The notes beneath the pieces are model-generated. The model had not been told where the DNA came from. It made no database searches and worked only from the letters and a program-made list of their open reading frames with translations. Positions 36,437 to 56,114 of a DNA stretch of 64,000 nt are shown here, piece by piece; position 1 is the first letter of the stretch; each line of letters opens with the position of its first letter. The DNA lies in contig NC_058497.1 of the NCBI RefSeq assembly GCF_020382885.2, positions 16,298,330-16,362,329 of the forward strand, written 5' to 3'. This DNA comes from Scatophagus argus. Its lineage: Eukaryota; Chordata; Actinopteri; Scatophagidae. Both the position numbers and the translations under genes were made by a program.

Positions 36437-36508
36437 AGGTTCCACCGAGATTTGAACTCGGATCGCTGGATTCAGAGTCCAGAGTGCTAACCATTACACC
36501 ATGGAACC
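36437..36508 (-). tRNA. tRNA-Gln (anticodon CTG)
   Basis: A 72-base cloverleaf on the minus strand. The acceptor stem pairs perfectly (GGTTCCA with TGGAACC) and is followed by discriminator T. The anticodon stem CTGGA/TCCAG encloses the loop CTCTGAA with anticodon CTG (36473-36475). The T stem CCGAG/CTCGG encloses TTCAAAT. There is no intron and no CCA is encoded. As I recall it, the sequence is essentially that of vertebrate tRNA-Gln-CTG. The first run of four T residues downstream in the transcript is about 45 bases away (36389-36392), which is further than usual for polymerase III termination. Confidence 0.96.
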
Positions 36509-38465: not shown

Positions 38466-41400
38466 TCAGGCCTCCAGCTCCTGGTTCTCTGTGTAGTGGA
38501 AGCGGTTCAACTTCTCCCTCTCACGATTTGAAATGTCCAGTTTGGGTGCGTGGGCTGGCTTTAGCGCCGGAGATGAGTGCGAAGGTGCTGGGGAGGGCGG
38601 CAGGGTCAGTTCAATCTCCTCGTAGCAACGTGAGACGGGGGCAGGGGCAGGAGGGTGTGTGAGCGGGGTGGCGGGGGGCAGGAGGGGCACGGGACGGTCC
38701 ACATTTCTGATGAGATTGACAAACTCCCTCTGATTGTTTATGCCTTCTTCCTGTGGGACGGCCTGCTGCTTTTTCCGCTTTCGATGGAGGTGGGAGAGAA
38801 TAAAGGCGCAGGCTGCACAGCCACAGACCGTCACTAAAGCCAAGACACCCACCAGGATAATGTAGAAGCTGACACCACCGTGTGTCGTGTCAGACATGGC
38901 ACCTGCAAACATGGACGCAGTGACAGAGCGGTTAGACAAGATTTCATAGAGCCTGTGAATATTCTCATTCATCCAGGTCATGGTTATCTCAAGGAAATTC
39001 ATTTAAACGCAACTGGACTTAGTTATTTGTCTTTGAAGACATTTCACCTCTCATCCAAGAGGCTTCATCAGTTCAGAGGTGAAACGTCTTCAAAGACAAA
39101 TAACTAAGTCCAGTTGCGTTCGATTGAATTTCCTTGAGATAAGATTTCATAGAGATTTTAGTTTAATTACTTTTTAAGACGAACGCACACATATTTTGAT
39201 TACCTGGACAGTGCTGACCAATGCAGGGATTTTTGAGGCTCATGCACTCATTACCATAATAACCATCAGGGCAGGCACACATGTATTGGCCCTCCGCACT
39301 GTGACAGGGAGCCCCCTGCTGGCAAGGGTTAGGATTGCAAGGATCCAACACTATCTGAAATAACAGAAGACAGAACAAGAATAACAAAAAGAAACCAGTA
39401 CAATGGCTTGGAATTTTTTCTTTTACTAATTAATTCCTACATATATGTTTGGAGTCATTACACAAACATTTCTGTGGCTACTTGAAATATTGTGAGGCTT
39501 CTAATCCTGGTAACCAATTCAAGTAGATATGCATCTACTGCCCCACCACTTTTTTCAGTTTGTCTTACAGATATTCTTGGTGTTCTTTTTACACTTCCTT
39601 TTTGTGATTGCACTAGAATGAATCTAAGATTTTTTGCATGATTGAGAGGCCTTCTTATAACCCTTTGTCCACAGCACATATCCATTTAGTTTAATCACTG
39701 CATGTCAGTTGCTATGAAGAATTCATTCTGCAGACTAAGCTTTCCTTAGCTTAACATCTACTAACCTCACAAAAGTTTCCTGAATATCCCAAGAGGCAGT
39801 TGCAGGTGAAGGTCCTCTCGTCTTTCTCCACACACTGTCCTCCATGCAGACAGGGGGCACTGCCACAAGGACTCGGTCCATTTTGGCAATATTTCCCTGT
39901 GAAGCCAGGTGGACACAAGCATCTGGACCCTGACAGCTGGTCCTGTGTGGGACAGCATGTAGAGAATGTTATTTATATGTATGTAAAACAGAGAGAATGA
40001 TTATATAAAGTTGGGGGAAAGTGCACTAAAGAGAGAAAGATCTGCCAGAGCCAACGAAACATTTGCCACTTTGAGATATAGTAGTCATGCTGCTCATAAC
40101 TTCAGGAATAATGTCAAAAAGAAGTTTTTAATGCCCAGAAGAAAGCCTAAAATGCCATGGGCGTTAACGTAATCAAAATTATTCCCAGTGATTTACTTTT
40201 TAAAAAATTAGCTTCTTGATTTGGCTGTGAATTCTTAATTTTGAGGGGCAGATGAAGGAATGAAATCAGGAGATCATGCGAGTGCCACTAAAGCGAATAT
40301 GAGAGCGCGAGAGGACGATAACGAAGCAGGTCAGTGTTGGCGACTGATATGCAGAGTCTGCAGGCAAATCAGAGCGGGAGAGAAGGACTTACCTCGCAAC
40401 GTCCACCGTTCAGACACAAACCCTGACAGCTGCTGTTCCCTAAAGATCAGGGAGACACAGATCAGAAATTATACCACAATGCTGTAACCAACAATATGCA
40501 AGGCGCAAAGAGAGCCAAAATCACTGGAGTAAAACAATCTCTTTCACACAGGAGTCTGGCATGCAGGGAAATGTGGTTTGAACACAGTCCTATGGGTCTA
40601 CCTGAAACAGCTCTCGAAATGTTTATTCCTTTCCTTTCCTTTCGTTATACCTACCCTTGTCCTTATCCTTGTCTTTGCCCTTTTATACTCACTGATGTCA
40701 CATTTAGGTCCCGTCCACCCAGGAAGGCAGTCACATAGGTATCCACCAATCAGGTTGCGACAAGAGCGGGCGTGTACACATATACTCATTTCACACTCGT
40801 TGGTGTCTAAAAAGGAGAAAGAACATTTTGAAAAATACTGGTGTGATGAAAATCATGTCATCTTACACTGATCTAAACTAATGATAAAAGGAGCTTCTGC
40901 TACACTATATAATATAGTAGCAGGAAATGAAATGACAGGACACAGAAGAGTCCAATATATATTAATATATGAAAATATGAGTCTGATCTCACACACAGCA
41001 TCACACTTAACTTCTCACTGAAATGAGATAAAACATCGCATAAAACTACCGAATCTAATCGCATGTGTCTCCTATTGGGCCCTGATGAACCTTAACCACC
41101 AGTTCAACCAAAGTTAAATCTGAATTGGATGCTTGAACTGAACCGTGAACTGGAGAATTGCTGTGCAGACGCGAGCAGGATGCACATCAACACGACAGAG
41201 TGCTTGTCAAAAATTATGTTTACAAATGCATAGTGCATCCAAAATAATGCCTTGCAGCATCTCCTCACGTCTTTGTTTATGCACAGATCCCCCCTGCTGT
41301 ATCGCTTCTTTCTGTTGGCTTTATGTGTGCTTATTCCCATCGTCTGCCACACTGGGAGTGTAAAAGCCAGGAAGCCCTGAGGGCTTGGCTCTGAAATGCT

Positions 41401-41718
41401 GAATGAATAAAGAGGAAGCAGACAGTCAGTTATAGGTAATCTAAACCTGTTACCTCCAGAGAGAGGCCTATTAGGATTTAGCACCAGTGAAGTGTATGTG
41501 TACAGTATGTATGTATGGGAGTGTGTGCGTGTGTGGGTGTGTTATCTATGGGAAAAGCCTGGGGATCCTGTCCACTATCAGAGAAAATGTGGGGACAGAA
41601 GTCAGCTAATAAAAGAGTGAAACTGATAGAAAGTTTAATTGCCTTTCACATTTTAGGCACTACTGATGCTCTGCCTTTCAGCTCAAGCTATAAAGAGTTT
41701 TATCACTTGTGTTTGAAC

Positions 41719-41755
<37 letters not shown>

Positions 41756-44700
41756 TACGTTGAGCCACAACCCTGTGATGTGGAACTATGAGGGATTATC
41801 AAGTGTCACAGTGACATATCACTGTAACACGGAGAAGCAGGAGAGGCTGTCATCCTGAAATATGTAGCAGTTTCTACTTCATAACCCCCAAGCATCTGTG
41901 TGTGTGTGTGTGTATGTAGCAGACTATGTCATCTGTGTGTGTGAGACCTGATCCTATACCATATTCCCTCTCTGCTGTAGTATCTAACACAACAAGCCTC
42001 TGGGAGTATACTTATCAACATGAGCAAATGCAGCCCAAAGGGACTTGACAGTGCATTTGGAGAATACAGATTCACAGTCAGGATGAGTTAATATGCCATC
42101 AGCTTTTTGTGTGGCCTTTTTCCTCTGTACTTCAAATGCATATGTCGCTTCAAATGGATCACATAATCACACATATCCCACGGAAAAACGGGTTTTGAAT
42201 AAAAGCTGTGCGCTACAGCTGAAATTGATTTAGCTTGTTAGAAGATCAATGTTGAAAATCCTGTGAACAGATTGCTTTGAAGATGACAAATACCAGATTT
42301 TCTTAATTAATAGAAAACTACATCAACAACTGGAGTGACACACTTTTCTCGTCTAATTTTTCACACACACTGGTGATGAAAAATTATCACCTTTATAAAA
42401 ACCCAATATAAAATCACTGTGTGGCAGCTTCGCCTTTGCCCTGGTAATCTGTCGAGGTTCGATCAATTATTTGATCATATTTTATTGATCAATTGATCAG
42501 TCAAAGTAGTGCACATATGAAATCTTCAGCGTAAAGCTTGTAAACACACCATGCATTTTCACGGAGAAAATAATGACAAAACTGTCATTAATTCTGTTTT
42601 GATTTGAAGTTTCTTTGCTTTGATTACTTTTAATCTTTACTTTAATATATATTGTATCATTTGTAACTGTATCAAATAAGTGTATCAAAATACGCCACAC
42701 CTGATTTCAATAATAAAAAGGTCTGTCCCAATACTTTTGTACATGTAGTGTATTTGTGTATAACTTAAAGCAAATATATGAATAGAGAGGCATTGACCAT
42801 CTACATGTATATAAGCCATGTTTAATCCTGACCCACTGACCCAGCTGGCAGGTCCTGCCCGTCCATCCAGGCGGGCAGAGGCACTGGTAACCTCCAGGAG
42901 CCTCCCGACATGTTGCTCCACGTCCACAAGGGCTCCGATCACACTGCCTCACGGCTGGGAGGAGAAGCAGAAAATACTGTATATGAATTACTGGTCTGTG
43001 TAATGGGAATGTGTGTGTGAACATTAAAGAGTGATTTTGTGTGTATGTGTTTCTGTGTGTTGCGATCTGAAACTGCAGCATTGGTATGCCAATGCTTTGG
43101 CAGCCTGTGTTTTCATTCTCTTTCCTGGTGCTCTGGTTTCTGTGCAAACAGTGATAAATATAATCATCTGCTGCACCAACATGGCTGACACCCCAAACCC
43201 TTCACAGAGAGGAGGAGGAGGAGGAGGAGGAAGAAGAGGAGAGAAGAACAAGTGAATTTAAATAAAAGAAGAGATGGGGTGTAAAATAGAAACGGGAAAA
43301 TGGAGCTGCCACGCCTTGTTCTGCTCCTTTAAAGAGGAATTAAAACCAGCTAAACAGGACAGAGGGAAAGTGAGGAAAAAGAGCAAAAATAGACAGAGAG
43401 ATGCACTCGTTTTAGACATTAACCACGCATGACGTCCTATTACACGTCATACCGTATTTGTGCAGTAGTGGCATCATAACTTTTCCCATGCGTGGCTCTG
43501 CAGTGCACATCTCTCACTCTGTCTCTCTCATAACCCTTTTTCCATTTACCTAACCCTACAGAACAACCATTTTCCATCCTGCTGACCCCGTCTCCAACCC
43601 TGAGCAATAATAATCCAAGCCAAGCTAGCGGCACTTCTCCCAAAACGGAGACAGAGGATTCATAACAAACAAAGAAGCCTTTAATTAATACTGGTTATAT
43701 ATATAAATCTTGTCTGAAAGCAGAGCTGTGTTGTGGTCATGGTCGTCATTCTCTGCAAGCCTGACAATCCTCTCACTGTGTATTCCCCAGAGATCCCCCC
43801 ACCCCACCTCCACAACACATGCAGAGACAGAGACAGACGGCCTCTCTGACTGTTAATCAAGCCAGTAACAAATAACAAGAGCAAAAATAAACTATTCCGT
43901 TATTCCTCAATTCGTCCCTCTTCTCTGATTCTCTCTGTCTCTCTCTCTCTCACTCACATAAATGATTCTTGGTGAACTGTTTACATGCCAGTGACCGACG
44001 TGCTGCTTATCCTGATCAGGGTGAAAGCAGAGGATGTGGAACGCTTGCTTGTTTACACACGCATCTCTGACAGACCATAGCCTGTACGATCCAATCTCAC
44101 CTGTGGCTACTCTCACACAATACGAGCTCACACCTACTGTATACATAAGTCTCACACCAAGAAAAGCCTTTAAGACAGACTGCTGTGACAGCTCAGTTGT
44201 TACTTCGCAGCCAAAAACATGTTTGACCTTTATTCATGCTTCACTGGGAGGTCGCACAAGGTGTGAGGGCTGCTATAAGTCAGTGTAACACCGTGTGTGC
44301 CAGGGATCAAGATTCAGAAAAATAAAGCAGGGTCAAAGACTCCTCCAGCTGCATGTGCTTACAAATGTGTCACAATTTTAGTCGATAATTTATCTGTGGT
44401 GGCTGGAAAACAGCAGTGCCCTCTTGAATGCCCTTATGGTAGATAGAAAATGATAAAAGGCCTTTTACAGTTTCCCAATGTGCAAGAAAATGTGCTGAAG
44501 CGCCCACTAGGGCTCCTTATGGAAAACGTGATCCGCTGCTACTTGAATTAAATGATTCAGCATTTCTGAGTTTGACTCATACTTGAGATTAGGAGTCAGG
44601 ATAGCTCAGGGTCTGCTGGTGCTTCAGTTTTGCCCAAGTTTTATTCAAGCGTGAGATAAACTATTTTGAAAGGATGCACCACTATGTTGAATGATTTTTC

Positions 44701-47700
44701 TTCTCGCTTCCTTCCACACTGTTTTCGTCATGAACATTTACTCTTATAAAATCTTGTTTATGGATGGATATCAGGTTTCTCTAGCAGAAATCTAGCTGTG
44801 ATAATCAGGTTTCTCAGATAGTTTACCCTGATTACAGAAACTGTCTTGTTTGTTTACACGACGGTTAAGAAATCGGTTTGCTGCAGAAAGCCGACAATGC
44901 AAAGTACATGTGAATAAACACTGCATGACATGAGCTCAAGGTAAAAACTGAAAAATATTTGTCAGTTAGATTGCCGCGATGCAAACAAAGGAATCTTAAT
45001 TTCCATTGGAAAATAAATAACAAAAGCTCAAAATTCCTTGTGTGCAATAATGCATCTCTAGTGTGCCTGCAGAGTGAAAATAAACTCACAAACAATCTCC
45101 GTTTTTCTTGGACCAGAATATTACAGAGTTTTTAAAAGCCAAAGTTAGACAGTCTAGCAACTTATTTTCAGTTAAAACATCCGGCTACTGTACAGCAAAC
45201 TAATGTCACCACAACTGAAAAGGATAAAAGCCAACAACAACATGTCAGTCCTGCTCTAAGTGTGTGTTGTTTTTATGTTTAACAGTTGTCTCAGTTTGCT
45301 CACAGAGAAAACAAAGTCTCATAACATTACAATCATTTGGCAGATGCTTTGGCCCAAAACAACTTTTTATTTTTTCCCATTCACACACACAACCCAGATG
45401 CACAAACACACACACATATCAAAAGGGGAACTGGATCCTGGAGCACAAATTTCCACATACGGGATGAAAGTCTGTGCTAACAGCATTCAACTGTCTGTGT
45501 GATGTTGTGATCCTCAGGAAGTTACTGGTTATAAGGGGCACCCACTTTATGTTTTCTTACTTACTTAACACACAGTTTCACCTCTCTGTTTATATTAAAT
45601 CAATAGAGCTGATCAAAGATCTCCTTTCAGTGTAAATATGCATGGGAATGCACACACACTCGCACACACACACACAGACAACTGGACAGTGGGTGAGACA
45701 GACCGCTGATTGCTGCTGATACTGTTTGTGTTCATGCTAATTTAGTTTCCTCTGTCAGATTGATTAGAGTCACTCACTGGATTTAATCGAATAACAACCA
45801 ATCACAGACAATCTCAGCTCATCTCCAAATTGTGTGTGTGTGCGTCATTGACAATCACCATCAGCGCAGGTGTGTCCGGTCCAGCCGTCTGTACAGATGC
45901 AGCTGAAGCCTGTTGGGTTTTCCACACAGGTGGCACCGTTCATACACGGGGACGACAAACACGCATGTTCCACTAGTGAGAGGTGGAGAAAAAAGGCATC
46001 AAAGAAGAGAAAAGGAAGAACAAACCACAAACAGACAAGAGGATACAGTTTACTTAGATTTAACAATGTGGTACACTTTGCCATGTTTGCTTTTGCCTCC
46101 TTTCACTCAGTGCGTATTTTGGGAAGCAAAAATATTTCATTCAGCTTTGCAAAATGTGTGCAGGTTTCATACATAATTTAATACTATTAAATTAAATATT
46201 ATGGCAAATATCTGCATGGTATGAGATCACCTAAACAATAAATCTGCAATGTTAGGAGACAGATTTAATGGATATATGTTATTTCTCTGAGCGTTTCTTT
46301 CATTTGTGTAGACAATCTGAATTTCATTTGACATTTGTTACTTGCTGTATCCACATACAGTATTCAACTAAACTTTTTTTTCACAAGTGGTTCAGTGCCC
46401 ACATGATGAATCCAGACTCACCAATGCCACAGTTGCGTCCTTTGTAACCTTCCTGGCATTCACACTGGTACTCGTTTGGCTCTGTGTTGGTGCATGTCCC
46501 TCCGTTCTTACAGGGCTGGTGGGTGCCACAGTAATTCAGATCTGAAACCATAAAAAGTCTGTGTTTAAGTTCAGTTCACAGCACAAAACAGCAAAAGAAT
46601 AAAGTATGTCGGTAAGAAAAGATAAAAGAACGAGGATGCAGATGGAACCCGGTTAACTTTAGTTTGACTTTGTCTCACATAGAGAGCGCAGCACACACTC
46701 ACACACATTTCCACACACATTCTGCACTCAGGCTGAAGTGTATCCAGGTCGGCTCATTGTGCTGACTGCGCAGGCCACTAGCTGCAGGGCCTGTTGTCTC
46801 TAGTGTTAAAGCTGATTAAAGCTTTGCTTTCTCTAATGATCTCCTCCGTGCCCACAGTCTCTTTGTCTCACCACAGCTCTTTACAGAGCCTTTCTCAATG
46901 CACAAAAACAGCTCAGGACCCCACCTAGCTAAGAGCGTCCAGCCCAGCCCTGCTCACATTCACCTTACCCAAGGCTATCGCCTTTCCTCTGCACAATACA
47001 ATGTCCCATGGGCACTTGCTGGGCTCCTGGATCCCAGCTCCCACGCTGGGACGGAGGAGGGGGTAGGGTAATGTTGGAGAAACTTTGTTGCAGTGTGGGA
47101 AAAGTTAAAGAATTTGAACTGCGAGTGGGCTGTGTCTTATCTTATACAGAAGATCAGTATGCCATGCCTGGGAAGGTGTGCGAAGAATCAAGCTTGTTAA
47201 ATACACAGACACAGTGTTTCTCTCTTTGTCTTCTTCTCACAAACGCGCAAACACACATGCACATACACACATACACTGATCAAGTCCTTGACTAACAAAC
47301 AATACAGGGCAAACTTCTTTCATCTTTATGCAGATGACACAGTCCTCTACTTAGTGACTTAAGCTGTGTTCTGTTGTTTGTATTAAATGCTAACAGTAAA
47401 ATAAAATTCAGAGGAAAAAAACTCTTATCCTAGACGAGAAGCAATAAATACTCTACACTGATATGACTGTGAGAATTCTTCAGGGAGCTCCTAGTCAGTA
47501 AAAGTACCTCAGTGTTGGCTCAGAGCAATTTGCAGGTTTCTTATATGTGTGGGCTCACAGAAAGAAAAAGGAAAATATATGACAAATGATGTTTTACAAG
47601 CCATAAGTGCAGAAATTAAGATACAGATCAGGACATTTTTCACAACTGTGCTCCACCGCACACTGGGTAGTACATGGCTGTGTTGTGGACAAGTCACCAA

Positions 47701-50700
47701 ACTTCAAGTCTGAGTCCAGTTTAGAGTTCCCAGTGTTCGAGTCCAAGTCAAATTCAAGTCATTAAAGAAAAAAAAACGAGTCAAGTCCAATCCAAATACA
47801 CTATTGTATAACTATTAGTTAATATTGAACTTTACGTAGATGTTACCTTACGCCAAATTACTATGGTATATTATATAAAACAAAATAAAAATCTGAGGAT
47901 GCCGATTTACGAGTCTGCAATTAATGCACAAGTCCAAGTCAACAGTGCTCAAGTCCAAGTCAAGTCCTTAAAATTAGGGGTTTGAGTCCGAGTCCCTGGA
48001 GTACTACAAGCCTGGTAGATGGTAATGAGTCTGGTCAGTTGTCAACTATTTATTCTCAAGATTATTGAATCTACTGTTTTCTCAACATTAACAACATGTG
48101 GTTGTGTGTGGCACAAACTGAGATAAGATGAAGTTCAGGCTGAGAAGTCAAGTCAAGTGTTGACCATGTGAGTCTGACAGCCTCCAGCTACATGTTTAGG
48201 ATGTCAAAATAAACAGAAGAAAAACAGGGAAACAGATCAACAAACACAAGCTAAATCCCAGTGTTAGTATATCCAGACTTTCTTTCACTCTGTCTTCGAA
48301 ACATTTAGTGGGTCACGTCTGACCTTTGTCACACAGCAGTCCTCCCCAGTTGACGTCACACACACACCGCCAGGGTTCGGTGCAGCTTCCATGCACACAG
48401 CCGGGGAACGTCACACACTGGTCACACAGGGGGCCCGCCCAGCCATAATGACACCTGAAGAGGGAGACAAGCACAAAGTTCATATTATGTTCACATGTTC
48501 ATGTTGTGAAAACTGTTTTCTTTAAATGGATTTGGGAAGGTTTACTTATATTACACAGGTTATATGATGCTTTTAAGATCAGTAGTTATATTTGTGAAAA
48601 GAGTTCAGCAATTTTGGAGTGCAAATAGCTCATCAGTGCAATTAAACCTCCAGGCACCTGTCTACTGCTGCAGGATTTAACACCAACGAGATTTCAGCCA
48701 CTCTGCACACGTCTAATTCAGGCTCAGGTTAAAAAACTGCAAAATTCTGGTGTATCCTATTTAATACTGTTTTAATCAGCTCGATGTTACACAAAGGTTT
48801 ACAAAATTTTCAGACTCACTTGCATTCTCCAGGAACAGTGCAGGAGCCGTGGACCTGATGACACCCCTGCTTACACACCGCTGTGAATGAAAACATCATA
48901 TACACAAAAAGAGAGTAATTAGAGACTAACAGCAACTGTGAAACAAAAATGAGGTTCAGTTGAGTTACTGGGTATTAAAAGCTGCAATCCACACTGACTA
49001 CATCTGCCAGTTAAACAACAATTCAAAAGAGTCGACATAAAACAATCCCAGATATCACCAGATACACAAAACATGCTCTTAACTGTGCAACATTGCACAT
49101 AGTAGATCATCAGTGTATTCTAACTATGTGAAAACAAATCTTGAAATACACAGTTTCCCCATGGAGAGCTCAAGACTGAAAACTTCCTGAACTTCATCAT
49201 GGTCATTAACCTGCAGGGGGTAACAGAGGGACCCCCAGCTAATTTTTCAGACTTCCTGCTTCTCCGCAGTCCAATCAACGACCTGCTGAGGAGGAAGTCA
49301 GATGAAGTGAGGATGTCCGTAAACTAGCTGTGTGTCCTTCAGGATTCCCATGGTTTCCACTCTGGTTTCCTCCATTCACTTTTCACCATCGCAACACGAT
49401 GGCAGCGCTCCGAGGTCACACAGTGAGGTCGTCCAGCTGATGAGTCACAGACAGACGGACAATAATCCCCCCCACACACACACACCATCCACTGTAGCTG
49501 ACTGTATTAACTGACACACAGAGGTGCATCAGTGTAATGGGTCCTAAAGGCTGTCAGTACTGATATTAACAGCAGTAGATGGGTACAAGCACTTACGTGT
49601 GCTTTTTCTCTTGAGGTTTATGCTGCCACTGGTTCAAAGGGTTGTTTGAAGGCTACAGCTTGGTTTTAGGGTTAGTTAGTATGCATGTGCATGTGAATCC
49701 AAAACAACACATCTACCATCCAAAGCTGATGACACTGGCTTGTGGGTCAAGTTTATTTTAACAGCCCAGAATTCACAATAACAGCTCCAAAGGGTTTCAG
49801 AGGCTGACATCAGAAAGGAAAAACAAGGACGCCCTCATGGAAAAACCTTTTAAGAAACCTTGGAATGGATCAGTATAGAGGAAACCCCCTTCTAGGGATA
49901 ATGGAAAAACAAAAGTGAAAACATTCTCTAATTTTTCTCATTTATGTCCTTAAGTCATCATGAGGAAAATATCACCTGATTATAGCAACAAACATATATA
50001 TCTATTTATATGGATTATTATGTGGTATGTCTTTTGAGTATTTTACTGATCTGAATGTGACAAAGGCAAACAACACTACAGACTTAACTTCATTGGATAC
50101 ATGATTTGTACTATTTTCAAAATGTATATAGGACATGTGGTGCTGAGGTACTCTCCCTGACACTTCGTTTTGATTTATGATTTAAGATCAATCTGGGTAT
50201 AATCTGAATATGAAAAAAGATGGATTTTGGCTAGCAGTCTGAACAAGGCCAAACACACCACAGATTTAAGTTCCTCTCACCTTCTTTGCACTCTGGTCCT
50301 GTCCAGCCCTCCATGCAGACCTTGGAGCCACTGGAGTCACAGTTGAAGTGACCAAAGAAGTCATCACGGGCCCTGCAGAACTTGTTGCAGAAAGGTCCAT
50401 AGTAGTTTGAATCACAGCGAAAGCGAAGTCGATATTCCAGACTGAAAGTTCGTCCGTGGTGACGGTAATTTTGCCACTGTTCACCAGGGTTCAACATGGA
50501 TGAGAGGAGGACTCGCTCAATCAGCTGACCTGGGGGAAGAAGAAAGATGGAAGACTTTTTCAGACTTTTAAGACCAAGCGCAAAAAACTGATCAGGACAA
50601 CTTTAAACTTCACTGCCACTTGGCCTGGGCAGGTTGTTAAATAAGAAATATTTCAAATCAAATCAATTCAAAGTGTGAGCTGGGCATTTTGTGCAATTTT

Positions 50701-51522
50701 CAGCAATTTTCTGAAAAAAGATAGGCGCATTTTAAAATTTTTCAGTGTACTGAATTTCTGAATCCATTGGTATCAGATAACGAGGATATAAGATATCAGT
50801 ATGAATATCAGTGGAGACAAGAGCAGGCTAAAGGATCAGAGAAAAGAGGTCAGGGGTCTGCAGAAAAAAACCCTGAACACCAAAGCGCCGGGGTAGTGAC
50901 TGCTGCTCCTAACCCCCGGAGGGGATTTCACCGTCATCCCCAATTCAGTTATAATCTCCTGTGACGGAGTATTAACGCAAAAAAAAGCACTAAGGATATG
51001 TGTGTGAGTAAATCGTGTCTCAATGCTATGTATGTATGTATTTAAGAGATGGTGGTGAGGGTAAAGGGAAAGATTGCAAGATGGTAGAGCTGTTTTGTGG
51101 ACATGTTTTGCTTACCTTGTAGAGACAAAAATCTGTTACGCAGTTACATGTGGTTACTCACCTTCCTTATGGGGACAAAATGAAGTCCCCATAGCTCCCA
51201 TGATGTAAATGTTTAAATTTTAGGGTGAAGACTTGGTTTAAGGTTAGGTTTAGGTTAAAATTAGGGTAAAGGTTAGGGTCAGGTAAGTAATGGTTTTGGT
51301 TATGGTCTATGTAATGTCCCCATAGGGAACGGAGACAAGACTCTCCCTCTCTCTCTCTGTGTGTGTGTGTGTGTACGTGTGTGTGTGACAGACAGAGAGG
51401 CAAACAGAGCCAAAGAGGAAGGGAGGCAGCTATTAGGGCACACACATTGCAAACCGCCTGATGGAGAGATGAGATCACCATGGTTTGACACAAAGGAATG
51501 ATAACAGGGGCACATATTGGCC

Positions 51523-51553
<31 letters not shown>

Positions 51554-54500
51554 GTGTTTAAGAGAATAAAAGAGGAGTGGGAACAGAGCAGATGCAGAGC
51601 ACTCTGTTATTTCTGCCATTGCCCTGTTTCTCCACCAGCCCTCCGCCTGTAGTCACATCTGAGGGCCCGCTTTTCCATCACGTTACTCCAGTGCGTTGTG
51701 AGTTTTTTTATTATTTCATAGCTCTTGCATGTCAAAGGGCTAATTTCATCATCACCATTTCTGTGCAAGATAAGAAGAACAGTAGAAGCGAGAAGAGTAG
51801 AAAAAAAATAACCACATTATCAGGCAGCACAGCAGGGAAGGTGTAGAACAGAGTCTGATTTCCTCTCCAATGAGATTAGTTGAGATGGCACAATAATGAA
51901 AGTGAGCACAAGTAGAGAGAAAAATGGAGAGATTGAGAGAAGCTCAACTATTAGATTACAAAAAGAGCAACAACAACAAGAAGGTTTACAGAAAAGCAAA
52001 TACAAATACAAGCAGGAGACGTGTCTGCAGGTAGCAAAAACACTTTAATCCTTATCTCTGGCCTCTTGTCATTGTCCCTGAGTACCTGGTACTAGCTGAG
52101 AAAACACTGCAGGAGAGAAAACATCTCCTTTTGACTTGCTCTTCCACATCGCTTGTACCGACAAATCAATACAGTAGACCTATGGATTTCAGTAGATCAG
52201 CTGGATAGTGTTTGTGTCTCCTCTATATTAAATGCATGTGGGTAATTCTCAGAGTTGCCTTTTTTTGTTTTCAATTTTGACTCCAGTCCACAAAGTCCAG
52301 ATGAAATTATTCTCATCTGGATAAAAGCACTAAGTCTAAACATGTGTCTTGAATTTTATAGACAAGCTGGTCTAAATTATAACGCTTCTAATATTGAATT
52401 TCACTTTCTCTCCGGCGGTGCTGGCAATTTTGTGGCTGTGAGTGCTCTGTCAATACAGTTGAAACATGGTTGAACACAGCAGCAAATCTGCACTCAAAAT
52501 GACCCTGTGAATATGTGAACAGGCTGAAACACAGTAAGAAAATAAAACTGATGCTATTATAAAGTAATTGTGGTTTATTAGTACACTGTACTGGCAAAGG
52601 TACATTGTGTGCATTTTACGGCCACTTGCACTAGGAAGCAATGTTTTTAGGAGTGCGTGTCTATGAGCATCTCTGAGTTTGATAATCTTGGCAATAGTTT
52701 CATGCCATTTCATTTATCGACAGCTGTTGTTTTAATGTCCAAGCAGGTGTAACAATATACCAACAACCGCAAGGAAGAAGAGGAGTTCTGGCAATGACTA
52801 GTGGGGGGGTTTGTGAAGCTCCAAAGATGCACACAGTGTGTTTCGGTAAGAAACACTGAACATAAACATTAAAATAACTAAAAAAGAAAACTCGACTACC
52901 TTCTTCTTCAAGATCTGTGCATGTGATGACACTGCTAAATGGGAAAGTCAGATGAGGGGGAAGAAATGCATGTGATCAAACAAGTTTGTAACAAACCTCA
53001 TCAAACATTTGCCACATGCAAGCTGTAATTTGCGCCATGAAATGATTTTCTATTGCTTCTTGTTTTACTTCTCAAGTCAAGTATCACAAGTTTAACACAC
53101 TAAATATGATGTGATATGTTTTTGTTGTTTTCTAACATATTTTAGTAACTTCTTCAAATTAAATTCATTCTCGTAGTACTAGGCAGTGTGACTATCTTTA
53201 TCTTCCCTTTAGTAAAACAAAACTTTAATTGACTATGTCTAATTAATTCTTTATGATGTCAAACTCTTTTTTAACATACATCAGAATCAGAATACTGTAC
53301 TGATCACTGGGGGAAATTGGGTGATGATTCTTTGAACTACATGATTTGTGTTTGCTGGTTTGGTGAAATTTTTAAGGGGACCAAAAAGAGGAGACAGGAA
53401 GAGCAGGAGAAGGTGAGAAAAGAAAATCTATGGTTAATTTTGTGTCTGTGCTTTTGTCATTTGTGATTTTGATAAATAATGTTTTATATTATAGCCAGGT
53501 TTCATTCTTAAACTGAAGTTATGCTTGCACTCAGTTGTCAGTTTATTAGTTACACTTATCTCAAATTAATGCAGTACAATACAGTAAGTAATCTTAGACA
53601 CATAAGTTATAATATTATTGATTGTGGTTGATTAAACTTCACGGTCATTTCAAAGGCTGCAGTTTGTGAAGTTTCTATTATTTTGTCCATTCAATTTATA
53701 TCACTGAGGGTAGGCTAAATAACAGTAGGCCTTTAATAATATTTGTATTGTTCAATTCAGATACAATGAGGGATTATTACCAACATTTCAGGTGCACTCA
53801 CTTGCAGATTTACATCAAAATAAAGTGGGATTTAGATCATCTAATTAAACTGCTGGCCTGTTTACCATCTGTCAGATCAACTCTGTTTCTTGTCCCACTG
53901 GGCTTCGTTGTAGTGATGCCATCATGTTCCCAGATCTAGCAATTATTATGGTGAGCAAAATGTTGCCATTACCAATAAAAATGAGGACCAAAACTATCAA
54001 AACAAGAGCAATGTCGTACAAAACCGAAATGATATTTTAACACCCCTGCATATTAATACTTGCTACATCTTATTTAACAGAACTCAGTGAAGGTCATACT
54101 GTCAGTGCTCAAAGGACATCATATTTTCTCACAATTTCCATGGACTGTTTCAGAAGTTACAGTCATGCTGGGTAATCCTTTCTGATTAGCAGCCGGGTCT
54201 GATAAGTCCATTCAGACTGCTTCGGGACTCCCATATTTGGGCTGAGCTAAGCTGCTGGCCTAGTGAACGGCTTTAGACCCAATGTAAGGGCTGTCAGGAG
54301 CTCAGGTGGAAATGACAGATGATGCAAACAAGATGTAAGAGTAGCACTGGAGGGCAGAAGGAGAGGTGGAAGAGGACAGGAGAGACAAACACAGAGAAGG
54401 ATCTCTGGTGCAGTTCCCAGTTTCTCATTATCTCAGCCATCTTTTGGATATGACTGGGGTTGGTGGGATGAAAGGGACGACTGTGGCATGACAGGAATGA

Positions 54501-55327
54501 GGAAGGCATAGAAACATCTGTCTCCATCTTTCTCTCTCTCTCTCTCTCTTTCTGTATGTTGTGTGGGTGTGCGTGTTATACTTTTTATAGCACACAGCTC
54601 ACATTCCCTGTCATGGAGTTTTCCCTGATTATGAGGAGAAACAACAGGAAGACAAGCAGGAAATTAAAAGGTCTGGATAAAAGACCTTGTAGCCTCGTAT
54701 GATTGCAGACATAAGGACACAAGGGATGTTTCCACAGTGTTCCATAATGATAAGCCACAAATACTCAAAAACAAGCTCTGCGTATTGAAATATACGCTAA
54801 AAAGTAAGCTAGATATGTTTTCTTGGGGAGACAAGTGGCGGAATAGTTTAAGACAAAGCCTAAACACAATAACTACATGATCAAAATTAAGTACAACAAT
54901 TTGAGTTTCTGAATACTGTTTTCCCATGCAAAATTATGATGTTAAAAATTATTATGTGTCATCTTTCAAAAATGAACATGTGAAACTCCCAGGAACAAAA
55001 CATAGGTAAAACTAAACCATCGTGGCCTAGAGGTTGGAGAAGCGGCTTGTGATCGGAGGGTCACCGGTTCGATTCCCCCACCGGACGGGCAGGAAAAATT
55101 TGGGTGTGGTGTGCGAAAAATGCTTCCTCCCCCTCATTAGCCGGCTGATGTGCCCTTGAGCAAGGCACTTAACCCCCCCAACATGCTCCCTGGGCGCTTG
55201 ATGCTGTCCTCTGCTCCTGTGTGCATACCTACACATAAAGGTATAAAAATACACACACTGCAGCTTCACCTGATTCTGATGTGTCGTTGTCATAGTCCAG
55301 AGCATCCAACACAAGCGAGAAGGACTT
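38466..55327 (-). CDS. short Jagged-family Notch ligand (DSL plus nine EGF repeats, transmembrane), exons 1-2 off the window
   Basis: Cell-surface DSL ligand of Notch. Exons from 5': 55270-55327, 50281-50529, 48820-48880, 48324-48454, 46422-46541, 45859-45972, 42841-42954, 40693-40806, 40393-40439, 39766-39942, 39204-39354, 38466-38902. Phases agree and give 590 residues. Exon sizes 61-131-120-114-114-114-47 match the JAG1/JAG2 layout as I recall it. End of the N-terminal module: [32 protein letters not shown] and [13 protein letters not shown]1 [17 protein letters not shown]3 [14 protein letters not shown]4 [12 protein letters not shown]6 [17 protein letters not shown]9 [12 protein letters not shown]. 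Part of EGF10 (PCIGQHCPG) joins AMSDTTHGG, a transmembrane segment (about [20 protein letters not shown]) and [21 protein letters not shown] matches the Jagged cytoplasmic start. EGF11-16 and the cysteine-rich domain are missing. JAG2-like residues predominate. The end, ENQELEA, lacks the JAG1 PDZ motif. Confidence 0.9.
38952..39140. mobile_element. foldback element with 14-bp target-site duplication beside the terminal jagged-like exon
   Basis: Arms 39008-39051 and 39075-39118 are reverse complements with one mismatch in 44, around a 23-base loop. The symmetry extends outward to 38986 and 39140 with a four-base mismatched patch. AAGATTTCATAGAG flanks it exactly at 38938-38951 and 39141-39154. 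The duplication length argues for retroposition rather than cut-and-paste. It is in the last intron, 49 bases from the acceptor. Confidence 0.75.
41721..41754. repeat. (GT)17 microsatellite
   Basis: A pure TG run in an intron of the jagged-like gene. Confidence 0.95.
42705..42752. mobile_element. terminal fragment of a Tc1-type transposon
   Basis: GTCCCAATACTTTTGTACA, followed by TGTAGTG, is the reverse complement of the terminus seen at 34503 (CACTATGTAGACAAATG then TATTGGGAC). Only this end is recognisable here. Confidence 0.55.
42955..45858 (-). other. jagged-like intron between EGF5 and EGF4 exons
   Basis: About 2.9 kb without a recognisable exon or complete repeat. A (GGA)n tract lies at 43208-43231 and a TC-rich stretch near 43930-43955. 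Confidence 0.6.
46542..48323 (-). other. jagged-like intron between EGF3 and EGF2 exons
   Basis: No exon seen. The segment 47690-48010 is rich in AAGTC/GAGTCC units. Confidence 0.6.
47690..48010. repeat. AAGTC/GAGTCC-rich degenerate repeat
   Basis: Multiple copies of GTCCAAGTCAA, TCAAGTCC and GAGTCCGAGTCC at both ends of a 300-base segment with an AT-rich middle. The arrangement, repeated motifs at both ends, suggests a decayed non-autonomous DNA element. The family was not identified. Confidence 0.5.
48881..50280 (-). other. jagged-like intron between DSL and EGF1 exons
   Basis: No exon seen. It contains a decayed interspersed repeat at about 49745-49910 (AGGAAAAACAAGG, AAAAACCTTTTAAGAAACC), similar to a common teleost retroelement segment. 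Confidence 0.5.
51100..51335. repeat. teleost dispersed repeat with GGTTAGG-like core
   Basis: CCTTATGGGGACAAAATGAA at the left and ATGTCCCCATAGGGAA at the right form an imperfect inverted relation. Between them is a GTTAGG/AGGGTAAAGGTTAGGG-rich core. The same pattern is common in fish introns. It is not telomeric: the hexamer is irregular. Confidence 0.5.
53283..53330 (+). mobile_element. decayed retroposon 3' tail
   Basis: AGAATCAGAATACTGTACTG, followed by ATCACTGGGGGAAATTG, resembles the same teleost LINE tail as at 36353-36383 but with more substitutions. Confidence 0.4.
55015..55255 (+). mobile_element. tRNA-derived SINE next to a splice donor
   Basis: The head has an A-box-like TGGCCTAGAGGTTGGAGA and a perfect B box GGTTCGATTCC (55066-55076). 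The body includes CCCTTGAGCAAGGCACTTAA, diagnostic of a SINE family common in percomorph fishes. It lies in intron 3 of the jagged-like gene, antisense to it; its 3' edge is only about 10-25 bases from the donor of exon 55270-55327. No clear target duplication was found. Confidence 0.8.
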
Positions 55328-55676: not shown

Positions 55677-55795
55677 CCATCCATCCATTTTCTATACCGC
55701 TTATCCGTCTGGGTAGCAGGGGGGCTGGAGCCTATCCCAGCTAACTATGGGTGAGAGGCAGGGTACGCCCTGGACTGGTCGCCAGTCAGTCGCAG
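55677..55795 (-). mobile_element. tail-only copy of the tRNA-headed SINE-like repeat
   Basis: In minus sense it reads through GACTGGCGACCAGTCCAGGG, GGATAGGCTCCAGC and ends in TTTCTATACCGCTTATCC-complement and ATGG repeats (the CCATCCATCC at 55677 onward), matching the 3' half of the element at 936-1300. The tRNA head is absent, as expected from 5' truncation. Confidence 0.75.
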
Positions 55796-56114
55796 GGCTG
55801 ACACACATTCAGTGGTGAAAGTATGGAGATCTTTTACTTTAGTGGAGGTAACCTACCAATCTTGTTGAATAAAAATATACCAATACAAGTCAGCTTAATG
55901 TATGAATGCATCATAATGACCTGAAAAGTAAGTAGTGAAAAGAAGGTACTGTAGTTGTATCAAGTACCACAAAATGGAAACATTTGAGTTTGTCAGGACT
56001 GAGTAACTGTATCTAGTCTCCCTTTAGTCTCATTCTACCATTGAGAAAAGCTGTGTGTGTGTGTGTGTGGGTATGTTTCTATCCTCGCTCTAAGCCTTGA
56101 AAAAAGACAAGCAT

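Follow-up and report, generated by a model that had tools for sequence, protein, structure and literature searches.

A Jagged-type Notch ligand of Delta-like length in the fish Scatophagus argus, probably a member of a third vertebrate Jagged lineage

The stretch of Scatophagus argus DNA analyzed here (the window: 64,000 nt, C5:16298330-16362329, in a genome of 570.7 Mb and 48 contigs) carries on its minus strand a gene for a Notch ligand with a Jagged-type head, a shortened stalk, and a transmembrane (TM) segment followed by a cytoplasmic tail. The evidence supports the description of this gene as a Jagged-type ligand that lacks everything from the second half of EGF10 to EGF16 as well as the C-terminal cysteine-rich part, so that nine and a half EGF repeats are retained, compared with about 16 in Jagged/Serrate ligands. 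We regard it, with a probability of roughly 0.82, as this genome's representative of a third Jagged lineage of gnathostomes (jag3-like), an ohnolog of JAG1 and JAG2 that is probably sister to JAG2, that lost 12 exons before the ray-finned fish/tetrapod split, and that has since been kept as a short membrane ligand. The broader scenario is also quite likely: a third Jagged of Delta-like length would have been ancestral in bony vertebrates, would have arisen more than 400 million years ago (a figure that comes from vertebrate divergence times), when 12 exons were cleanly removed in a single event, and would have persisted in ray-finned fishes, salamanders and caecilians as well as in lizards, snakes, and turtles, with losses in mammals and perhaps birds.

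Twelve exons of the gene lie in the window (55327..38466, Table 1), spanning 16,862 nt and translating into 590 aa. All 12 have an AG acceptor, the 11 that need a GT donor have one, and the phases are consistent; the outer coordinates are those proposed in the first-pass annotation, which had been made from the letters alone. Exons 1 and 2, which encode the signal peptide and most of the MNNL domain, were looked for and not found inside the window and were later located upstream, at 15,216-15,374 nt (exon 1) and 10,856-11,200 nt (exon 2) beyond the window end. The complete gene has 14 exons and 758 codons in a joined frame without an internal stop, and with its Delta-like number of EGF repeats it is, as the annotation had proposed, about as long as a Delta protein. 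A chance gene model is excluded because a Thunnus protein (P0001) is 91% identical across the entire 590-aa model. Hydropathy of the full model peaks at residues 42-60 (signal peptide) and 628-646 (TM segment). An AlphaFold2 model of P0001, with a mean predicted local distance difference test score of 59.1 and a predicted template modeling score of 0.29, is too weak beyond one long helix at residues 627-660.

The paralogs in the same genome bear out the claim that the gene follows the Jagged exon plan in order, size, and phase through EGF9, exons 1 and 2 lying outside the window. At E <= 0.001, 11 DSL loci were found in the genome; by best match they comprise two JAG1 loci (C2, C10), two JAG2 loci (C19, C15), the C5 gene, and six Delta loci. 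Exons were mapped by an automatic script in three of the four other Jagged-type loci (jag1b-C10, jag2-C19, and jag2-C15), and the full-length status of the other Jagged loci rests on these three of four. From exon 4 to exon 13, the exons of the short gene measure 249, 61, 131, 120, 114, 114, 114, 47, 177, and 151 nt and are followed by the TM exon. The corresponding exons of jag1b-C10 measure 258, 61, 131, 120, 114, 114, 114, 47, 174, and 151 nt, the only differences being in exons 4 and 12, and are followed by exons of 165, 114, 114, 114, 117, 28, 86, 114, 110, 240, 132, and 142 nt before its TM exon. The series 61, 131, 120, 114, 114, 114, 47 is common to the short gene and all three mapped paralogs; exon 13 of jag2-C19 was mapped as 163 nt, and the automatic mapping did not resolve exons 12-13 and some later exons of jag2-C15. 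In jag1b-C10 the absent block of 12 exons totals 1476 nt and in jag2-C19 it totals 1506 nt, corresponding to 492-502 residues of stalk, and all three mapped paralogs enter the TM exon from an exon with a phase-1 end. Since the block is in both cases divisible by 3, with phase 1 on both sides, its removal keeps the frame, and the short form could therefore have arisen in one step. In the proposed event, a block encoding the second half of EGF10, EGF11 to EGF16, and the cysteine-rich and juxtamembrane parts would have been lost between two phase-1 introns.

Exon 13 and the last exon join in frame, phase 1 to phase 1 (...QHCP-G-AMS...), and the splice sites and phases confirm the direct splice from the EGF9 exon to the TM exon. 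The window does not conceal the missing exons, which agrees with the first-pass view that the short intron leaves no room for them. The junction intron has 301 nt, 159 of which are taken up by a palindrome. Outside the exons, a six-frame EGF-pattern scan of the window, which misses atypical repeats like EGF1-2, returned just four stray hits, of which two contain stops. In tblastn searches with macaque JAG2 and gar JAG1, the EGF10-16 parts of the queries hit the window only as cross-matches on known exons, and beyond EGF16 the matches were that of the macaque JAG2 TM segment and tail and the end of one weak gar match, lying on exon 12. Neither search found further EGF or cysteine-rich exons in the window, and the 590-aa window protein has no Pfam match to PF23575. 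The claimed loss of EGF10-16 and the cysteine-rich domain stands overall and needs correcting for EGF10, whose first two cysteines remain on exon 13. A second copy of the palindrome was sought in the window, where only short weak matches were found. The position of this palindromic element, in the short intron at the very junction, is what would speak for an assembly or gene-model artefact in which a normal jag gene would have lost exons 14-25 through collapse. However, the window contains no N, the genome has four other Jagged-type DSL loci, three of them mapped with distal exons, and an equal junction recurs across many species, transcript-sized contigs included. Its prediction in so many other species makes an assembly collapse very unlikely, and we give an artefact of either kind almost no credence.

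The wider distribution of the short form was drawn from three protein searches, the best 120 rows of each yielding 237 proteins. A FastTree phylogeny of these proteins and the window protein contains one clade of 112 rows (support 0.993) with lengths of 331-918 aa. All 107 rows longer than 1080 aa fall outside this short clade, as do, among the matches listed, just two of the rows with 830 aa or less (P0106 and P0119). By start and tail motif, 97 of the 111 database rows in the clade look complete, with a median of 725 aa. Its named members are many teleosts, Lepisosteus, Amia, Ambystoma, Lissotriton, two caecilians, many lizards, three snakes, and Chrysemys. Other teleosts, in which the first-pass annotation had suggested looking for the architecture, do share it, as do gar, bowfin, salamanders, caecilians, lizards, snakes, and a turtle, and short and full-length rows coexist in Chanos, Gouania, and Lepisosteus. 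Mammals, birds, crocodilians, frogs, sharks, lungfish, and coelacanth are not among the named short rows listed, in which members within 90% clusters are unnamed; with the best 120 rows taken per search, their absence does not prove loss. The Jagged C-terminal domain PF23575 was found in none of the 67 short-clade members scanned (of 111) versus 34 of the 35 full-length proteins scanned (of 107). Pfam does not discriminate on VWC, which gave no match in the short and full-length sets alike.

Two further features of the clade bear on its origin and on the reality of the junction. In Jagged genes, the exon for EGF9 extends into EGF10 and includes the codons for its first two cysteines, the spacing there being C-x6-C-x4-C in vole JAG1, macaque JAG2, gar Jagged, and lamprey Jagged. 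This cysteine pair, orphaned in the short form, is present in 94 of 109 anchored clade rows (window row included), 90 of them with the 6/4 spacing; EGF9 was anchored by pattern, and three of the 112 rows could not be anchored. Several of the 15 anchored rows without the full pair are truncated or exon-skipping models or are anchored on an earlier EGF. We read the orphan half-EGF10 cysteines as a probable mark of descent from a longer Jagged. Six proteins of 685-760 aa with the EGF9-TM junction (P0014, P0030, P0041, P0045, P0079, and P0094) are encoded on contigs of 2.4-4.2 kb, which we infer to be spliced transcripts because the part of the gene inside the window already covers 16.9 kb. The gar and bowfin short isoforms P0076 and P0083 are without about one EGF unit; the EGF absent from P0076 is present in gar P0104, a difference that is possibly due to alternative splicing.

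A maximum likelihood tree of 60 rows, built on the region from exon 3 to EGF9 (24 short rows including the window, 35 full-length rows, and one insect row) with no Delta rows included, was rooted on the insect ligand, which has PF23575. It places the window protein among the Jagged genes, in a short clade of its own (100/100) that stands beside JAG1 (100/98) and the cyclostome Jaggeds and groups with JAG2 (itself 99/95) at 90/87. The ray-finned and tetrapod short genes are sister groups, and the short form is therefore most likely older than their split; a single ancient loss of the block would account for this. Strong similarity to JAG2 from DSL to EGF3, and the retention of two jag2-type loci in Scatophagus argus, could instead suggest a teleost-specific (third-round) jag2 duplicate that was shortened in fish only. 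This origin is refuted: the short genes of teleosts group with those of tetrapods, gar, and bowfin at 100/100, and a clade of teleost short genes with teleost jag2 is rejected by the approximately unbiased (AU) test (p 3e-61), leaving it next to no probability.

The genomic distribution of the Jagged loci fits a whole-genome-duplication paralogon. CCHC fingers of the BCL11 family occur at five loci, on C10, C2, C19, C5, and C15, the same five chromosome-size contigs that carry the Jagged loci. The chance of such a coincidence is about 1 in 42,500, assuming independent sets and 24 equal chromosomes, a number based on genome size. We take JAG2 and BCL11B to share human 14q32.

That the head is of the Jagged rather than the Delta type, as first proposed, is borne out by Pfam signatures, structure scores, and DSL matches. 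The protein has MNNL (PF07657), DSL (PF01414), and the Jagged-type EGF1-2 signatures PF21700 and PF21795. Against solved structures, the region from the N-terminal module to EGF3 scores 314 bits with JAG2 (5mw7), 303 with JAG1 (4cbz), and 194 with DLL4; the DLL1 structure 4xbm reaches 350 bits but in an alignment twice as long (405 residues). The best matches of the DSL locus (L003) are P0001 (167 bits), JAG1 (112), JAG2 (107), and jag1b (107), DLL1 being outside the best four. These matches and the Jagged exon plan rule out a Delta-type ligand. The DSL loop, an 11-residue stretch, follows the pattern [FL]CR.R[DN]D[FY]FGH, which fits 99 of 112 clade rows; residues 199-207 of JAG1 are presumably those that contact Notch.

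The cytoplasmic tail comprises 107 residues with six lysines and includes an N-box-like stretch of 12 residues and a C-terminal stretch of 13 residues. The column of JAG1 N1124 has N in all 21 rows of alignment A3, 17 of them short, and this asparagine is termed pivotal for MIB1 binding in PMC11887331. A strict N-box pattern in the last 180 residues is found in 89 of 112 clade rows versus 57 of 107 full-length rows; the 50 full-length rows without it are mostly teleost by name. A 17-letter C-terminal motif, sought with one pattern in both sets, is present in 102 of 112 clade rows versus none of 107 full-length rows. From these features, the most likely function would be that of a trans-activating Notch ligand pulled by Mib1: the receptor-facing head (MNNL-DSL-EGF1-3) would bind Notch, Mib1-dependent endocytosis through the N-box would pull the ligand, and the membrane-bound protein would activate Notch in trans with a Delta-like reach and without a contribution from the distal stalk. 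It is reasonable to suppose, with the first-pass annotation, that loss of the EGF10-to-cysteine-rich stalk shortens the reach of the ligand on the cell surface.

Several observations weigh against a third Jagged lineage, sister to JAG2 and kept as an active ligand. The turtle row P0128 (a cluster of 41) is without the orphan cysteine pair, and snake P0127 keeps one cysteine of it. The BCL11 comparison was conceived after the neighbor on C5 had been seen, and its link is by contig only. The sister relation to JAG2 is not firm, as a grouping of the short clade with JAG1 is not rejected (AU p 0.19). A third Jagged ohnolog that is sister to JAG1, or to JAG1 and JAG2 together, is accordingly conceivable, although the best tree, which has the short clade with JAG2, makes it rather unlikely. 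In the tail, the N-box is widespread without being universal, the strict pattern being absent from 23 of 112 clade rows, and no C-box was identified. In the DSL loop, the residue preceding the cysteine varies: of 100 clade rows that match the pattern, 74 have F and 26 have L. These features of loop and tail, together with the missing 492-502 residues of stalk, would suit a ligand that acts by cis-inhibition or as a decoy instead of activating, and in Drosophila Delta a weaker Mib1 interaction is tied to stronger cis-inhibition, according to PMC11887331. Pulling driven by Mib1 is favored by the conserved DSL core and by the N-box asparagines, which are more frequent in the short clade than in the full-length rows. 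Delta ligands activate with similarly short stalks, and we consider a decoy unlikely. A jag3-like, trans-activating ligand remains our preferred reading. The L at the variable loop position occurs in the five tetrapod rows and the goldfish row of alignment A2, and the F/L variation is possibly a change in receptor preference.

The neighborhood of the gene in the window contains further genes of the minus strand. Next downstream is a clasrp-like gene (33932 to about 26045), in which a DRY_EERY domain was found in the open reading frames (ORFs) 32942-32679 and 32246-31968, its other exons being assigned by eye; we read it as clasrp. A BCL11-family zinc-finger gene at 20658-14881, with CCHC_BCL-11A and BCL11A-like fingers, is probably znf296. 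Human RELB, ZNF296, CLASRP, and GEMIN7 belong to one chromosome-19 locus, according to PMC5897035. Exons of a calpain-type protease (Peptidase_C2) lie at 4106-2003, one of the two ORFs being below the Pfam cut-off. Between the Jagged gene and clasrp, an Rfam tRNA match (36437-36508, minus, 68.3 bits) marks a tRNA gene or a tRNA-derived element. The stretches at about 55000-55250 and 55690-55850 resemble common fish interspersed repeats, as judged by eye.

Table 1. Exons of the short Jagged-type gene and its junction intron, in window coordinates. MITE, miniature inverted-repeat transposable element.
Feature	Position	Strand	Content	Evidence or remark
Exon 3	55270..55327	-	MNNL (C2-like) end, 19 residues	splice/phase; tblastn with P0001; MNNL Pfam
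Exon 4	50281..50529	-	MNNL end and DSL domain	splice/phase; DSL PF01414, 73.8 bits; one of 11 genome DSL loci
Exon 5 (61 nt)	48820..48880	-	EGF1 first part	splice/phase; equal size in three mapped paralogs
Exon 6 (131 nt)	48324..48454	-	EGF1 end and EGF2 (Jagged-type)	splice/phase; PF21700, PF21795; paralog exon size
Exon 7 (120 nt)	46422..46541	-	EGF3	splice/phase; paralog exon size
Exon 8 (114 nt)	45859..45972	-	EGF4	splice/phase; paralog exon size
Exon 9 (114 nt)	42841..42954	-	EGF5	splice/phase; paralog exon size
Exon 10 (114 nt)	40693..40806	-	EGF6	splice/phase; paralog exon size
Exon 11 (47 nt)	40393..40439	-	EGF7 first half	splice/phase; 47-nt exon in three mapped paralogs too
Exon 12 (177 nt)	39766..39942	-	EGF7 end and EGF8	splice/phase; 174 nt in jag1b-C10 and jag2-C19
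Exon 13 (151 nt, phase 1 end)	39204..39354	-	EGF9 and orphan first two EGF10 cysteines	splice/phase; 151 nt in jag1b-C10
Junction intron (301 nt)	38903..39203	-		at the position of 12 further exons (14-25) of full-length Jagged genes
Palindromic MITE-like element	38984..39142	.	68-nt arms, 94% complementary, 23 nt between	within junction intron
Last exon (437 nt including stop, phase 1 start)	38466..38902	-	juxtamembrane stretch, TM segment, cytoplasmic tail	

The first-pass annotation knew of no described vertebrate Jagged of this form. We likewise found no description of a short third vertebrate Jagged, nor any usable work on the Jagged cysteine-rich domain, in the open-access literature searched, subscription papers being outside the scope of the search; the form is, at the same time, not peculiar to one genome. 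In that literature, jagged3 is given as an old name of zebrafish jag1b (PMC1781496), Jagged1 and Jagged2 groups are given for zebrafish, frog, wall lizard, chicken, and human (PMC10277265), and a review table has Jag1 and Jag2 in mouse and human and jag1a, 1b, 2a, and 2b among nine zebrafish ligands overall (PMC10859470). The short proteins are already in the NCBI databases under misleading names (jagged-1b, jagged-1-like, jagged-2, and others), and the gene seems to be a third Jagged that has been overlooked. One more conserved ligand would bear on how knock-outs and expression in fish, amphibians, and reptiles are interpreted. If mammals, and perhaps birds, did lose a third Jagged, then the textbook list of five vertebrate Notch ligands is the mammalian list. 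The gene would also be a natural experiment on the role of the distal Jagged stalk: with the distal EGFs and the cysteine-rich part gone and the head and Jagged tail kept, it lets one ask what the lost parts are for.

Among known ligands, the amphioxus Jagged genes can be likened to the short gene by description only, as invertebrate ligands of the Jagged clade reported without a VWC (Gazave 2009, PMC2770060); the authors of that report deem prediction error, incomplete assembly, or secondary loss possible. DLL1 and DLL4 resemble the short gene in overall length and in the number of EGF repeats and differ from it in that its N-terminal region to EGF3 matches Jagged better and its exon plan is of the Jagged type, no Delta gene having been mapped for comparison. 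JAG1 (jag1a/jag1b) shares the exon plan to exon 13 and an N-box with N1124 in the same alignment column, whereas it has the further exons and PF23575, lacks the C-terminal motif, and forms a separate clade. JAG2 (jag2a/jag2b) shares MNNL, DSL, the Jagged-type EGF1-2, EGF3-9, exon sizes and phases to exon 13, and, in the rows of alignment A3, the N-box; it differs in that the JAG2 genes mapped here continue with about 12 more exons for EGF10-16 and the C-terminal part, in PF23575, and in having no C-terminal motif. A domain definition that includes a cysteine-rich domain and about 16 EGFs leaves the short gene outside the standard Jaggeds; its descent and exon plan make it a Jagged.

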